From: Sphingobacteriales bacterium
GTDB lineage: Bacteria > Bacteroidota > Bacteroidia > Chitinophagales > Chitinophagaceae
DNA length: 64,000 bases
Direction: 5' to 3'
NCBI GenBank assembly: GCA_016235125.1
Contig: JACRLZ010000001.1
Span: 422,645-486,644 of the forward strand
Shown: in pieces, positions 22,066-29,259 of the stretch
Position numbering within the stretch: position 1 is the first letter of the stretch
How the letters are laid out: every line of letters starts with the position of its first letter
Program-made: the position numbers and the translations under genes
The notes under the pieces: model-generated
What the model was told of the DNA's origin: nothing
Database searches by the model: none
Seen by the model: only the letters and a program-made list of their open reading frames with translations

Positions 22066-23115
22066 ATGAAAAAAATATTTATTATTTGTTTCAGCTGCTA
22101 TATATATTCAGGTATCCCGGCACAACAAACATCAGCAAAAGAATCTTCACATAACGGGCCCAAACTCGCCAAACAATTACTGCAATTACTGGACTATGCC
22201 AAAGATGGATTTAAATCTATTAAAGGAGAAGAAATCAAAACATATAGTGCAGACCTGGGTACATCCTCATATTTTGATCAAAAAATTTATTCCAGATTCA
22301 AAACTGCTTTTTTACCGGAAGAAGCTGCAAAAAGCGAAATACGTTATTATCCTGATGATAAATCCACAAAGTTTATTGCTTCTTTCGATTACATGTTTAT
22401 CCCAGGGTTCTACTTTTCAAGCCTTTTTGATACATTGAAAAAAGAACTGGGGAATAGTTTTACGTATGAAGCTGATGAGAAAAGTATCAGGAGGGATGGT
22501 CATTATGAAAAAAGTCAGAAAGCTGTGTTTTACCGGAAAGATTCAAGACAGCCGCAAATAGAACTCATCTTCAATCTGGATAATGATACAATCACAAATG
22601 GAATGCCGCCCGGAATATTGATCGTAGTTGAAGGGTTAAAAAACCAATCACCGATTGCAGATACTAAGTCATCAGCAAATCAAACCAATCTTACAAAACA
22701 ATTACTGGAATTACTGGACTATGCAAAGGATAGGTTTAAGACAATTAAAGGAGAACCCAATGAAGCCATGAACGAGAAAAATAAATACTCTGTTGCAAAG
22801 TATTTCAAGACAAGCATTGCGCTTAAAGAAGCTGTAGAAAATTATATAGAAGAAACCAATTCAAAAATTAAATTCAAAGCTGATTTCGGCAGGAATCTTA
22901 CAATAACAGGAGGTAAGGAATTATTCAAAGACCTTTCAAAGAAGATAAAGGAAGGGGCATGGGATGATTTTGAAATTAAAGAATACTCCGGATACATTTT
23001 TGGGGATTATCTGCGAATTCGCCGGAAGAATGATTATACACATTCCATTTTGCTGACTTTTGATGATGGAGAATATAATGAGACCTCCCCAAAAGTTTAT
23101 ATAACTGTCGAATGA
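22066..23115 (+). CDS. secreted protein with a duplicated unknown domain
   Basis: 349 residues starting KKIFIICFSCYIYSGIPAQQ, a signal peptide. The mature part is two related halves: LAKQLLQLLDYAKDGFKSIK at about residue 35 and LTKQLLELLDYAKDRFKTIK at about residue 210, each followed by an alpha/beta region ending in an exposed strand (GILIVVEG; PKVYITVE). I do not recognise the family. A more distant third copy seems to form the C-terminus of the MORN protein downstream. Probably periplasmic. No transmembrane segment or lipobox is seen. Confidence 0.8.
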   Translation: MKKIFIICFSCYIYSGIPAQQTSAKESSHNGPKLAKQLLQLLDYAKDGFKSIKGEEIKTYSADLGTSSYFDQKIYSRFKTAFLPEEAAKSEIRYYPDDKSTKFIASFDYMFIPGFYFSSLFDTLKKELGNSFTYEADEKSIRRDGHYEKSQKAVFYRKDSRQPQIELIFNLDNDTITNGMPPGILIVVEGLKNQSPIADTKSSANQTNLTKQLLELLDYAKDRFKTIKGEPNEAMNEKNKYSVAKYFKTSIALKEAVENYIEETNSKIKFKADFGRNLTITGGKELFKDLSKKIKEGAWDDFEIKEYSGYIFGDYLRIRRKNDYTHSILLTFDDGEYNETSPKVYITVE

Positions 23116-23189
23116 ATTTTTTAAAATTCTCTCCCGGGAGTATTGCTCCACTATTAAAAAAAATATAGTTTCGTAAAGTCAAAACACCC

Positions 23190-24842
23190 ATGATGCAAAA
23201 ACTATACTTCTTTTGCATCTGTATTTTTATATCCATAAATACAGATGCGCAAATCACCACAGGCCGGGTAAGGTGGAAAAGCGCCTCAAATATCTATTAT
23301 ACTTATACAGGCGAACTAAAAGATGGTAAACCCCATGGCAGAGGATTCGCTATTTCGGAAGATAAAGGCGATATATGGATACAGGTATTTGGAGAATTTA
23401 AAGACGGGATGATTGACGGCAGTACCGTTATCCGGCATAGCACCGGTAAGATCATAGTGGCAAAATGGAAACAAAACAAACCTGAAGGAACCGGAGTGAT
23501 AATAACACCTGATGAGAACATTGAATACGGAAATTTCCTAAACGGAATAATGGAAGGACGGGTAATCAATATTCATTGGAATAATAAGATAGTAATTAGC
23601 AATAACAAAAACGGAAAGGGAAATGGCCGGGCTATTGTGATAGCCCCGGATGGTAATACTATCACTGATAGAATATATATTAATGATACTGCCAACGGCC
23701 CCGGTTATCAATACGAAGTAAAAAACAAGCAGCTATTTGAAGGCATCTGGGAAAAAGGAGATTGGGTAAAAGCAACAACCGGAAATTTTCCATCCTTTAT
23801 GCGAAACAGCAGGTTGAGCGGTGCGGTCAAATCAGATCACATTTATATTTCTTCTGATTTTGTCAGACAAGGTAACATGGATCAATTTCATGATACCTGT
23901 TTCCTTTATGACACCAAAAATAATAATCGCTGGTTTGGATACTGGGAAAGGGGCCAATTCCGGAGCGGTGTCCGGCTAACTGGTGACAGTGTCCGTACTA
24001 TCGGGCAATTCGATGAAAAAGGATTTAACCTTGGTTTTGGTGTGGAATATAAAAAAGAACGGTATTTATACATAGGTAATTATAAGGAAGGAAAATTGGA
24101 CGGGAATGGTATAATGATTGATATTGACGACTCCACTATTTATGATGGATATTTATCCGCAAACAATTATTCCGGCAGGGCAACACGGCTTTTGAAAAAT
24201 AAAGAAATCAAAATTGGAAATTTTGAAAAAGGAAGGTTGGTTGGAGAAGGGAAAACCATTTTTCCCGACGGACGATCCGTTTCGGGCATGTATGAAGATG
24301 GCAAATTGTCGTTGACCAGCATAAAAGAAGTAGTAAAACCAGATGGAAAAAAAATTGACATTCACCCGAAAGATATCAATACAGCCATAAATTTTTTACT
24401 GAAAGAATGGGAAAACAATTTTATGAATATCAATAGCGGTGAGGAATCTGAAACTGAAACCGGGTATTACAGCTGGTATGATTTTCCGCAGGGGTTCAGT
24501 ATTATCAAACCGGACAGGACTGGAATAGATGGAAAACCGCATAATGAATTTTCATCTGATATGGGGGAACATGGCGATTATTATCTTTTAAAAAATATAT
24601 ATAACCGTCTTTGCAAAGAAATATCTGGTTGCACCATCACTTCACTTGCAAAAGGAAAATCATTCAAATTAATTCCTAAAATAAATAAGTTGCCGGAGGA
24701 TGGACAATTTGAAAGGATAGCAAGCTTCTTCACCATACCGGCATATCCCGGGAAAAAAAGCGACCCGCAAATCCGTGTAATGATGGAGAACAAAGGCGAC
24801 GCATACCGTCTGACAGTGGATATCATTTCAAAATGGAAATAA
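23190..24842 (+). CDS. secreted MORN-repeat protein
   Basis: 550 residues with a signal peptide (LYFFCICIFISINTDAQ). From about residue 30 to 375 come repeated MORN-like units such as YTGELKDGKPHGRGFA, GNFLNGIMEGRV, YIGNYKEGKLDGNGI and GNFEKGRLVGEGKTIFPDG. The last 160 residues are different and resemble the duplicated domain of the upstream gene (LLKEWENNF..I.SGEE near 400; PQIRVMMENKGDAYRLTVDI at the end). MORN repeats form long beta sheets; in Bacteroidota they are common in exported proteins of unknown role. It lies 74 bases after the previous gene, across a CTCCCGGGAG palindrome (23131-23140). Confidence 0.85.
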   Translation: MMQKLYFFCICIFISINTDAQITTGRVRWKSASNIYYTYTGELKDGKPHGRGFAISEDKGDIWIQVFGEFKDGMIDGSTVIRHSTGKIIVAKWKQNKPEGTGVIITPDENIEYGNFLNGIMEGRVINIHWNNKIVISNNKNGKGNGRAIVIAPDGNTITDRIYINDTANGPGYQYEVKNKQLFEGIWEKGDWVKATTGNFPSFMRNSRLSGAVKSDHIYISSDFVRQGNMDQFHDTCFLYDTKNNNRWFGYWERGQFRSGVRLTGDSVRTIGQFDEKGFNLGFGVEYKKERYLYIGNYKEGKLDGNGIMIDIDDSTIYDGYLSANNYSGRATRLLKNKEIKIGNFEKGRLVGEGKTIFPDGRSVSGMYEDGKLSLTSIKEVVKPDGKKIDIHPKDINTAINFLLKEWENNFMNINSGEESETETGYYSWYDFPQGFSIIKPDRTGIDGKPHNEFSSDMGEHGDYYLLKNIYNRLCKEISGCTITSLAKGKSFKLIPKINKLPEDGQFERIASFFTIPAYPGKKSDPQIRVMMENKGDAYRLTVDIISKWK

Positions 24843-24855
24843 GACTGTCCCTGAT

Positions 24856-26274
24856 TTATTTTTCCACCAGCTTCTCATCGATCAGATAGGCAGCCACACC
24901 ACTAATATTATCATTTCCCTGTGCATCTTCGATATAAACTTTAAAAGAAGTGATAGTAGCAGCCGGAAATGTCAATATTCTTTTTCTGCCAACACTTGTT
25001 CCCAATATTTGACCGATGGCTTTATCCCCTTTGTAAAGAACAATACTAAAACTTCGGACCGTCTGGCCAAGATGTATGGCTTCCCGTAAAACAATACAAT
25101 TGACTTTTTCAGGATTTTTCAATTGCACTACAAAATTCTGCATATTGATGGCATATGTTTGCGAGGGAGCATCAATACCCCTTATCTGTATGGGTCTTTC
25201 TGAAAAATCTTTCTGGCTGAACTGGTAATAGGTGTCTGCGTCTTTAATAAGGTTATCTGCAAAACTTTCATCTTTCAATTTTTTAAATCCTGCAAGGGCT
25301 ATGGAATCTTTTTCAGTGATCCGGCCACTTCTGTCCGGCGGCACATTCAATAAAAGGTTGGCTCCCCTGCCGACTGATTTCAGGTAAAGGGAAAAAAGTT
25401 GTTGTGCTGTTTTTATTTTCTTGTCTTCCGATGAATGATAAAACCAGCCGGGACGAATGCTTACATCGCATTCCGCAGGCATCCAGAATTTGCCATAGTA
25501 ATTTCCCCTGTTTAAAGTATCTGTTGGCGGAGCACCTAATCCTCTTTTGAATCCTGCGGTATCTAAAAAATTCCAGTTGGGCTCTCCGGCAATCCCGCTT
25601 TCATTTCCTACCCAGCGAATGTCGGGACCAATATCACTAAAGATTACTGTTTGCGGAGAATATTTTCGGACGGTGCTTTCAAATCTTTTCCAGTCATATA
25701 CCTGTTTTTTACCATTAGGTCCCTCCCCGTTTGCTCCATCCCACCAGAGTTCCCATACAGGGCCATAGTTCTGTAAAACCTCTTTCAGCATATTTACAAA
25801 AACATCGTTGTACTTAGCTGTGCCATAGTCCGGGTGATTTCTGTCCCATGGAGAAAGATAGACACCGAACTTCAATCCATACTCTCTGCAGGCTTGTGAA
25901 AGTTCTTTCAGCACATCACCTTTGCCCTCCTGCCATTTGCTTTCTCTTACTGTGTGAGTGGAGAATTTACTTGGCCATAAACAAAATCCATCATGATGCT
26001 TAGCTGTGATAATAATTCCTTTTGCTCCGGCTGCCTTTGCTACCCTGCACCATTGACGGCAATCCAACTGTGAAGGATTAAAAACATTTTCCGGTTCATT
26101 TCCTTCACCCCACTCTTTGTCAGTAAATGTATTGGGACCAAAATGAGCAAATAAATAAAACTCCATATCATGCCATGCCAATTGCTGCCGGGTGGGCAAT
26201 GACATTGAATTATTTGTTTGGGTGCGGCCTGTTAATGTTGCTAAAATCAAAAAGCCTAAAAAACATTTTTTCAT
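24856..26274 (-). CDS. alpha-L-fucosidase, GH29
   Basis: 472 residues with a signal peptide. GH29 motifs: WHDMEFYLFAHFGPNTF near 34-50, ITAKHHDGFCLWPSKFS at 89-105, LSPWDRN, and the nucleophile Asp179 in VWELWWDGANG. The acid/base is less clearly placed, as is usual in subfamily B, and the sequence fits the B type found in Bacteroidota that cut alpha-1,3/4-fucose. A C-terminal beta-sandwich follows from about residue 345. Probably periplasmic. Its ATG overlaps the stop of the upstream phosphatase gene (ATGA), so translation is likely coupled. Confidence 0.93.
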   Translation of the reverse strand: MKKCFLGFLILATLTGRTQTNNSMSLPTRQQLAWHDMEFYLFAHFGPNTFTDKEWGEGNEPENVFNPSQLDCRQWCRVAKAAGAKGIIITAKHHDGFCLWPSKFSTHTVRESKWQEGKGDVLKELSQACREYGLKFGVYLSPWDRNHPDYGTAKYNDVFVNMLKEVLQNYGPVWELWWDGANGEGPNGKKQVYDWKRFESTVRKYSPQTVIFSDIGPDIRWVGNESGIAGEPNWNFLDTAGFKRGLGAPPTDTLNRGNYYGKFWMPAECDVSIRPGWFYHSSEDKKIKTAQQLFSLYLKSVGRGANLLLNVPPDRSGRITEKDSIALAGFKKLKDESFADNLIKDADTYYQFSQKDFSERPIQIRGIDAPSQTYAINMQNFVVQLKNPEKVNCIVLREAIHLGQTVRSFSIVLYKGDKAIGQILGTSVGRKRILTFPAATITSFKVYIEDAQGNDNISGVAAYLIDEKLVEK

Positions 26275-27365
26275 TTCCTCATTTTGAAAACATACAAAAT
26301 AGGTTCGGCAATCGGATGATCAGATTTATAAACATAGCCCATCAGGTTTGCAAATGTTTGAGCAAATTGCTTCTGGTAAAGTTGCATCTCCGTACTCATT
26401 TCTCCTCTTACAGGAGTGTCCGGCCCCATCACTGCAAACCATATCTCATGTGAATCTGCAATTTTATTATTATGGCTTGTCCATTCATCTTTATTGGCAT
26501 CTCCCCTGCCATGATCGACTGTAACAAATAAAGTGGTTTTATTTTTATACTGCGGATCTTTTTGAACAAAATCCCAGATCTGCTTCAACCATGCATCCAC
26601 CTGGTGAGCGGCATCAAGATAAGACCGGTACCTGCCTTCATGCGCCCATTCATCCGTTTCCCCGTATGCAATATATAACACCCTTGGCTTCTTTGTTTTT
26701 AAGTACTCCATCGCTGAGTAATGAGTGAAGACATCGAGACATTCTTCCTCGCCGAAAGGTCTGTACGAATCATTATTCATGGAATTTATAAGATTCTCAA
26801 AAGGGTTTGGATTATTTCCTCCTGCAGGATTAAAAGCAGACACAACCGGGATTTTACTCCTCTCCTCATTCAGGATTCTGTCAAATGCACCCCATGCGCC
26901 AAAGGCAGCCACTTTTCCTTTCAATTTAGACTGATTATTCAGGAATTCAAGAACTGTTACATGCGGGTTAGCCGGAAAGCTATTACTGTTTACAGCAGTA
27001 TCCGGATAACCCGTCATTATTTCATTGTACCCGGGATAGCTGAACCAGTAAGGATTTGCATTGTCAACTTTAGATCCGAGATCCCTGTTGCCAAACAATC
27101 CTCCATTTTCCTCAACAGTATTCCATAGAGAAGGAAGCAATTTCTTTCTTCTTTCATTCGCATCACAACTCCAGTAGTTTTTATAAATATATTGGCTGTC
27201 TCCCTGGTTGTATTTACCGTTATCAGCAATGGCAGAATCCATGCCTTTAAACACTTCCTGCCAGCGAAAGCCATCCATTGTGATAATAATTATGTTTTCA
27301 GTTTGCCGCTGGGCCGATGCAAAAAATGAAACAAACAAGCCGGTAATTAAAATGAGTTTTTGCAT
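26271..27365 (-). CDS. secreted alkaline-phosphatase-superfamily protein
   Basis: 364 residues with a signal peptide (LILITGLFVSFFASAQ). Superfamily metal motifs are IIITMDGFRWQEVF near the mature N-terminus, SYPGYNEIMTGYPDT where the nucleophile Thr is expected, and LFVTVDHGRGD near residue 290. This places it with phosphodiesterase, phosphatase or sulfatase-like hydrolases; the substrate is unknown. It sits between a beta-galactosidase and a fucosidase gene in one operon, which suggests removing a phosphate or other ester from the same glycan. Confidence 0.85.
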   Translation of the reverse strand: MQKLILITGLFVSFFASAQRQTENIIIITMDGFRWQEVFKGMDSAIADNGKYNQGDSQYIYKNYWSCDANERRKKLLPSLWNTVEENGGLFGNRDLGSKVDNANPYWFSYPGYNEIMTGYPDTAVNSNSFPANPHVTVLEFLNNQSKLKGKVAAFGAWGAFDRILNEERSKIPVVSAFNPAGGNNPNPFENLINSMNNDSYRPFGEEECLDVFTHYSAMEYLKTKKPRVLYIAYGETDEWAHEGRYRSYLDAAHQVDAWLKQIWDFVQKDPQYKNKTTLFVTVDHGRGDANKDEWTSHNNKIADSHEIWFAVMGPDTPVRGEMSTEMQLYQKQFAQTFANLMGYVYKSDHPIAEPILYVFKMRK

Positions 27366-27376
27366 AAATTCCTTTT

Positions 27377-29191
27377 TTATTCCAATGTTTTCTTTGCGCT
27401 GATACCGGCAACATTCAACTGATGAAGATCAAAAACAATGATCTCATTCCTGCCATTGTTCAGCCATGTTGCGGGACAATATAACCTCATTTGCGGGCCA
27501 ATGTTCCAGTATCTGCCCAGGTTATGACCGTTCACATATACAATACCCTTTGAATAATTGCTCATGTCGAAATAAGTATCCCCCGTTTTATCAAGCATAA
27601 ATTCGCCTTTAAAAAATAATCCTTGTTTATCGTTTACCATCCCTCTTGATGGTTGCGCTGCCTGCTTTACAAATTTATACTCCATTGGCAAAGGATAAAT
27701 TTTCCAGTTCATTAATGTCATTCCATTCAAAGTCACACGGTCGGTGATGCCCTTTCTGTCAATCATGTACTGGGCAAAATTGATATGTCCCATCCCCTCT
27801 ACTAAAATTTCGAGTACAGGATTATTTACAATAACATCGGGCTTGGGCAAATCAATTGTCCACTTGCCCCCGTCTCTGAAAACAGTATCAATAAATTTAT
27901 GATTTAAAAAAACCAGTGCATAATCATGCGGTTCCAGGATGGTAAGCTTGCCGCCCTTGTGACCAATTAGTTCTGTTCTGTACAATATCAGCCCCTGGTT
28001 TTGATTAAACGCTTCCATCGGCTTAGGCTGAACCGATTCAACAGGTGCAGGCAGGTTATGCCAGATGGAATTCATGATTTTCATTTCAATCGCCGGAATT
28101 TCAATTACCGGAACAGATTCAGGAATATCCGGAATTTTATAGTCAACATATTTTTCAATCAGGCCTCGCAGTATGAAAAACTTTGCAGTTGGTTGGCCCT
28201 GTTCATTAATAGGCGCATCATAATCATAACTGGTGATATCCGGCTGGTATTGGGTAGGAGAAAATGCATTGGCTCCGGCAGTAAATCCAAAATTGGTTCC
28301 GCCATGAACTACATATAAGTTGAACGATTTTTTATGTTGTAATAAAAATTCCACTTCCCGTTTTAAATTATTGGTATCAGGCCTGGCAAATTTTTCTCCC
28401 CAATGTGTCAGCCAGCCGGGATAAGTTTCGCTGCTGAATGAGGGAACATCGGGATTTCTTTTTTTTGCTTGTTCAAAATCTGCTTCGCTGCCGCCGCTGT
28501 CAAGCCCGATGGCAGCGCCATCAATATTTCCTGCTTCAAGCATATAAGCTGTTGGCCCGTCTGCTGTGAAAAAAGGAATAGTGATGCCATTTTTTAGCCA
28601 AAGTTTTCTCAATTCCTCCAGATACGTTTTATCATTTCCAAAACTTCCATATTCATTTTCTATCTGGAGCATCAATATCGGCCCGCCATTGTTACATTGT
28701 AAGGATTTTATTTCCTTTGATAAATGAAATATATACCTGTTTACTGCCGACATATACCTCGAATCCATACACCTGATTTTTATATCCGGTATTTTAAGCA
28801 GGTAAGTTGGTAATCCTCCAAAATCCCATTCTGCACATACATAAGGTCCGGGCCTCAGCAATACCCACATTTTTTCCTGCTGGCAAATTTTTATAAACCC
28901 AGCAATATTCCTGTTCCCTGTTTTATAATCAAATACTCCTTCTTTCAGTTCATGATAGTTCCAGAAAATATATGCGGCAATGGCATTGCAGCCCATTGCC
29001 TTTGCCATCCGGATACGATGTCGCCAGTATTCCCCGGGAATTCTCGCCGGATGCATTTCTCCACTGATGATCTGAAAAGGCTTGCCATCCAGTAAAAACT
29101 CATTTTCACCAAATGAAAAAATATGTTTGTTCTGAGAAAAGGAAGCAGTAAAAAACAGAACCAAAAGAAACAGGCAGGTCAGCTTTTTCAT
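27377..29191 (-). CDS. beta-galactosidase, GH35
   Basis: 604 residues from MKKLTCLFLLVLFFTASFSQ, a signal peptide. The GH35 (beta/alpha)8 domain has ISGEMHPARIPGEYW, the acid/base Glu180 in LQIENEYGSFG and the nucleophile Glu255 in SFSSETYPGW. Two C-terminal beta-sandwich domains follow, ending in GIVYVNGHNLGRYWNIGPQ. It removes terminal beta-galactose in the periplasm or at the surface. First gene of a three-gene operon with the phosphatase (11 bases downstream) and GH29 fucosidase. It is divergent from fumC. Confidence 0.93.
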   Translation of the reverse strand: MKKLTCLFLLVLFFTASFSQNKHIFSFGENEFLLDGKPFQIISGEMHPARIPGEYWRHRIRMAKAMGCNAIAAYIFWNYHELKEGVFDYKTGNRNIAGFIKICQQEKMWVLLRPGPYVCAEWDFGGLPTYLLKIPDIKIRCMDSRYMSAVNRYIFHLSKEIKSLQCNNGGPILMLQIENEYGSFGNDKTYLEELRKLWLKNGITIPFFTADGPTAYMLEAGNIDGAAIGLDSGGSEADFEQAKKRNPDVPSFSSETYPGWLTHWGEKFARPDTNNLKREVEFLLQHKKSFNLYVVHGGTNFGFTAGANAFSPTQYQPDITSYDYDAPINEQGQPTAKFFILRGLIEKYVDYKIPDIPESVPVIEIPAIEMKIMNSIWHNLPAPVESVQPKPMEAFNQNQGLILYRTELIGHKGGKLTILEPHDYALVFLNHKFIDTVFRDGGKWTIDLPKPDVIVNNPVLEILVEGMGHINFAQYMIDRKGITDRVTLNGMTLMNWKIYPLPMEYKFVKQAAQPSRGMVNDKQGLFFKGEFMLDKTGDTYFDMSNYSKGIVYVNGHNLGRYWNIGPQMRLYCPATWLNNGRNEIIVFDLHQLNVAGISAKKTLE

Positions 29192-29259
29192 AGCCCAATT
29201 TAGCACTGTACAAGGAACTTAAAAAGCCAAAAATGCTGCAACCGTTTGCCTCTTTGGCC

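Follow-up and report, generated by a model that had tools for sequence, protein, structure and literature searches.

The locus described here raises the question of whether the products of two adjacent open reading frames, P0001 and P0002, are exported and contain between them a single uncatalogued domain three times, once fused to MORN repeats, and what such a domain might do. The window, by which we mean the whole stretch of 64,000 nucleotides that was analysed, lies in a 3.6 Mb genome whose relatives are Chitinophagaceae. Both reading frames were present at the positions given in the original prediction, and the locus was divided into the following features.

22066 to 23115, plus strand: P0001, an open reading frame of 349 amino acids with two domain copies, predicted to be exported.
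22066 to 22122, plus strand: signal peptide of P0001, residues 1-19, assigned by eye; MKKIFIICFSCYIYSGIPA followed by QQ.
22156 to 22641, plus strand: domain copy 1 (repeat 1), approximately residues 31-192, which aligns to copy 2 and is part of the P0001-type profile.
22672 to 23112, plus strand: domain copy 2 (repeat 2), residues 203-349, assigned from its score with the single-domain HMM and from an AF2 model.
23116 to 23189, no strand: the intergenic gap of 74 bases between P0001 and P0002.
23190 to 24842, plus strand: P0002, 550 amino acids, MORN repeats and a C-terminal domain, predicted to be exported.
23295 to 24344, plus strand: MORN-repeat region of P0002, approximately residues 36-385, assigned from a Pfam match and the alignment of orthologues.
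24345 to 24839, plus strand: domain copy 3, the C-terminal domain of P0002, residues 386-550, conserved in MORN orthologues and assigned from the single-domain HMM and AF2.

An enoyl-CoA-hydratase-like gene ends 17 bases 5′ of P0001. P0001 and P0002 are on the same strand, no terminator-like site was found in the 74 bases between them, and their co-transcription is possible. The Bacteroidota promoter pattern occurred in the window at a frequency not above chance. Read by eye, the N-terminus of each protein is a signal peptide of Bacteroidota type with AQ as its last residues; that of P0001 has a lysine-rich start, a hydrophobic core and an A-Q site typical of Bacteroidota. On the strength of these signal peptides P0001 and P0002 are predicted to be exported, and to be periplasmic or associated with the outer membrane.

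Alignment of the two halves of P0001 from end to end gave a Smith-Waterman score of 106 (BLOSUM62), compared with 34.7 ± 6.1 for shuffled sequences, and none of 1000 shuffles reached the real score. P0001 is thus an internal duplication, as had been proposed. The first helix is the main site of identity between the halves (LxKQLLxLLDYAKDxFKxIKGE), with 55 of 66 nucleotides identical in the DNA. When this helix was left out, the real score was reached by 8 of 1000 shuffles, and the remainder of the alignment is still above chance.

Compared directly, the P0001 repeats and the C-terminus of P0002 do not match significantly. Pairwise alignments with BLOSUM62 were equalled by 181 and 929 of 1000 shuffles; with BLOSUM45 the corresponding counts were 2 of 1000 for repeat 1 and 455 of 1000 for repeat 2. 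An hhalign comparison of the two P0001 repeats alone with the MORN C-termini was also not significant (P 0.46). Each side was therefore enlarged separately with its own relatives, the P0001-type set being gathered from P0001 only and the MORN and single-domain set from P0002 only.

A scan of the genome contigs and viral contigs with P0001 itself gave no match, and weak same-genus matches (RpsB and others) were judged on reading to be due to chance. A profile of the P0001 halves picked up a two-domain protein of 336 amino acids (L074/L063). The pair of P0001 and L063 picked up two more proteins, one of 173 amino acids with a single domain (L075) and one of 536 amino acids in which two copies follow another N-terminal module (L076). 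These matches are individually weak (E 2e-4 to 4e-4 per genome), and the HMM and profile-profile tests described below therefore matter. From the P0002 side, eight full-length relatives were found in other genera of Chitinophagaceae, approximately 27-33% identical to P0002 and with the C-terminal domain conserved. With a profile of the MORN C-terminal domain only, the domain was detected in 32 of 149 genomes of the family, mostly in single-domain proteins of exported type, approximately 175-215 amino acids long and with the motif DYPNxFKNIKG...Y.S...PGA...W...D..A..KY..L. Most of these likewise show signal peptides by eye, and one is encoded in the same genome as P0001 and P0002 (L066:4082-4669). 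No single-domain members were found in the viral contigs searched. When the whole phylum was searched with the single-domain profile, matches came from 8 of 395 genomes, all of them Chitinophagaceae, so that among the genomes searched the domain is confined to this family.

The two sets were then compared. An HMM built from 29 single-domain relatives, gathered from the MORN C-terminus only and without P0001, scored 24.3 bits with the P0002 C-terminus, 17.6 bits with L063 and 13.9 bits with repeat 2 of P0001, a score reached by none of about 1,900 scored shuffles. Repeat 1 alone matched weakly (3.7 bits; 22 of about 1,700 shuffles scored at least as high). When the seven P0001-type domains were aligned by hhalign to the MORN C-termini together with approximately 26 single-domain proteins, the probability was 94.1%, the P value 1.2e-7 and the score 49.8. 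Permuting the columns of the P0001-type alignment 150 times gave no score above 14.6, and the seven-domain profile reversed gave P values of at least 0.3. With the MORN C-termini only, the score was 41.5 and the column-permuted maximum 14.2. The alignment is in register from helix 1 through the middle strands to helix 2, and the motif pair on which the likeness had been proposed, LLDYAKDGFKSIKGEE and LLKEWENNFMNINSGEE, falls in the same profile columns. As the two sets were collected without each other, the match between their profiles is not circular, and the family can be taken as established. Sequence comparison thus bears out the original prediction of one domain present three times: the P0001 repeats and the C-terminal domain of P0002 very probably form one family.

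The domain was found alone and in tandem, and also C-terminal to MORN repeats or to a second kind of N-terminal module; the first three of these architectures had been anticipated. The family length had been put at about 160 residues, which holds approximately, the domain being nearer 150. The other N-terminal module, in the predicted exported protein L076:1342-2949, resembles by eye a LamG/DUF1080-type sandwich, and no Pfam or PDB match to it was obtained.

The supposition that the domain was uncatalogued also held. P0001 had no match in Pfam, NCBIfam or the PDB sequences; the domain had none above cut-off in Pfam and NCBIfam, and PDB sequence searches with it matched no chain. Pfam matches such as DUF3993, End3 and KWL1 occurred in isolation, did not reach the cut-off or were spread across single members, and were rejected. 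On these searches neither Pfam nor NCBIfam contains the domain family. The repeats of P0002 are a known family (PF02493, E 2.9e-9, 36.7 bits against a cut-off of 22.5, four stretches). In solved examples such repeats serve as modules for protein-protein interaction (PMC7725318). P0002 has them in common with proteins such as MORN1 of T. brucei, over residues ~36-385, but MORN1 consists of repeats only and is cytoplasmic (PMC7725318), whereas P0002 is predicted to be exported and to carry the uncatalogued alpha/beta domain at its C-terminus.

AF2 modelled the C-terminal domain of P0002, from a ten-row alignment, with a pLDDT of 80 and a pTM of 0.81, as two helices, each followed by a set of strands. 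The model of P0001 repeat 2, made from the two repeats only with no MORN sequence, had a pLDDT of 62 and a pTM of 0.60, with the order H-E-E-E-H-E-E-E-E. The models suggest a family of approximately 150 residues with a helix, three strands, a helix and four strands. The expectation that the predicted structures would match was therefore borne out in part: the order of elements is the same in models from independent alignments, but the repeat-2 model is of low confidence and the Foldseek neighbours of the two differ. Class II tRNA synthetases, found with the repeat-2 model, were discarded because of its low confidence.

For the P0002 domain, Foldseek returned Mog1p, the PknH extracellular domain, TiME, PsbP, BamC, EagT6 and START-like proteins. 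The domain could thus be a true, highly diverged member of the Mog1p/PsbP fold superfamily (DcrB, LpqN, PknH sensor). The best PDB neighbours of this confident model are of that kind (1eq6, probability 0.85; 4esq, 0.93; 3jcu_P, 0.82), and DcrB and PA1624 are precedents for folds recognisable by structure only, PA1624 being an exported protein whose Mog1p/PsbP likeness was revealed by its crystal structure alone (PMC7716261). The fold, as represented by Mog1p, PsbP, DcrB/DUF1795, EagT6 and the PknH extracellular domain, also combines helices with an antiparallel sheet, and its bacterial members are mostly exported and non-catalytic, as is proposed here for the P0002 domain. Every match, however, had a TM-score of at most 0.38 and an E value above 0.02, so that the likeness is weak; the TM-scores of the Mog1p/PsbP neighbours were 0.31-0.38 (3jcu_P, 0.38; 4esq, 0.36), below the usual 0.5, and other helix-grip folds (START, Aha1, PYL) scored alike. 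There was no sequence match to PDB chains, nor to the Pfam families of the superfamily among 30 single-domain and tandem members, P0001 and P0002. Membership of this superfamily is therefore conceivable but unlikely.

In the single-domain set, conservation is highest at the AQ cleavage site and at D45, G55, G75, G133 and P138. No conserved set of His, Cys or Ser, or of other catalytic-type residues, was found in the single-domain alignment, which strongly suggests a domain without catalysis, and therefore most likely a binding or scaffold module.

Gene neighbourhoods point to a possible setting. An OMP_b-brl_3-type gene was present in 14 of 26 single-domain loci, mostly directly adjacent on the same strand and often on both sides, and a GLPGLI/Porph_ging-type gene in five of the 26 (confirmed by Pfam for one member). 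In the genome of P0001 and P0002 the single-domain gene lies between two OMP_b-brl_3 genes (L066:781-7644, contig C6), both of which match PF14905 (E 1e-37). This order, with the single-domain gene flanked by receptor genes, recurs in many genera. The shared neighbourhood may be one inherited locus, and hence one event. The domain itself is unrelated to PF14905 or to GLPGLI/Porph_ging (PF09697), and P0001 and P0002, unlike the single-domain members, have no such neighbours, no OMP_b-brl_3 gene being found beside either. We infer the link to receptors from this one conserved neighbourhood, which is absent from the window.

The absence of conserved catalytic-type residues from the single-domain set, the fast evolution of the domain and its fusion to interaction repeats lead us to infer a non-catalytic periplasmic binding domain. 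The domain would act as a binding or scaffold module, by analogy with PsbP, DcrB and Mog1p/PsbP-type sensor domains. Its commonest form would serve OMP_b-brl_3 outer-membrane receptors as an independent periplasmic accessory; P0001 would be a tandem, bivalent version, and in P0002 a rod of MORN repeats, which are protein-interaction repeats, would bear the domain at its end and could position it. We put forward this combination of exported binding proteins, with receptor accessories, a bivalent P0001 and a rod-mounted P0002, as a tentative reading only.

The usual site of the MORN gene bears on whether P0001 and P0002 work together. Of 12 other MORN loci, 9 have secA in divergent orientation upstream and 9 have atpG downstream, with scpB and lysA usually next; a genus-mate locus (L112) has the same arrangement. 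The secA-atpG site of the genome studied here (L131, C3:110000-123500) contains secA, a lipoprotein gene and atpG only, whereas the sites with which it was compared (L112, L113, L080 and L082-L085) have a MORN gene between secA and atpG. The MORN gene has therefore moved or been replaced. P0002 is also far more diverged (~28-32% identity) than its relatives, many of which share 40-73%.

It had been suggested that P0001 and P0002 are perhaps parts of one periplasmic assembly; pairing between their paralogous domains would hold it together. The two genes lie side by side on one strand, no terminator-like site was found in the 74 bases that separate them, their products have a homologous domain in common, and the MORN gene, away from its usual site, now adjoins P0001. 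However, the adjacency was seen in one genome and therefore has no comparative support: no P0001-type gene was found beside the MORN gene in 12 other genomes, where it is usually at the secA-atpG site, and the three other P0001-type genes (L074, L075 and L076) are in unrelated surroundings with no common neighbours and no MORN gene beside them. We consider a joint assembly improbable. A wider version is more doubtful still: the domain would be a Chitinophagaceae-specific periplasmic pairing module of new fold whose single forms serve outer-membrane receptors, and P0001 and P0002 would have been recruited as partners into a new envelope assembly once the MORN gene had moved away from the secA-atpG site. 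It is very improbable that the P0001 repeats and the C-terminal domain of P0002 belong to different families and owe their likeness to convergence of an amphipathic helix, a glycine and a few strands, since the non-significant direct comparisons, the weak HMM match of repeat 1 and the differing Foldseek neighbours are outweighed by the profile-profile score and its controls, the alignment in register and the common AF2 order.

The single family of P0001 repeats and MORN C-termini links hypothetical Chitinophagaceae envelope proteins of three kinds, the receptor-adjacent single-domain proteins, the secA-linked MORN proteins and the tandem proteins, all of which curators can now annotate. The receptor-adjacent proteins offer a direct route to function. 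The new family overturns nothing known.

Two further observations concern neighbouring genes. At the secA-atpG site the MORN gene is followed by an unannotated, conserved lipoprotein gene (CNxxEIGxxxDVNPExIYxDY...), seen at L082:7735-8448, L080, L084, L085 and L112 and also at L131, where the MORN gene is absent; its product had no Pfam match. In the window, alpha-L-fucosidase-like, alkaline-phosphatase/phosphodiesterase-like and beta-galactosidase-like genes, identified by reading, lie in a row on the minus strand at 24856-29206, and possibly form a glycan-degrading cluster.
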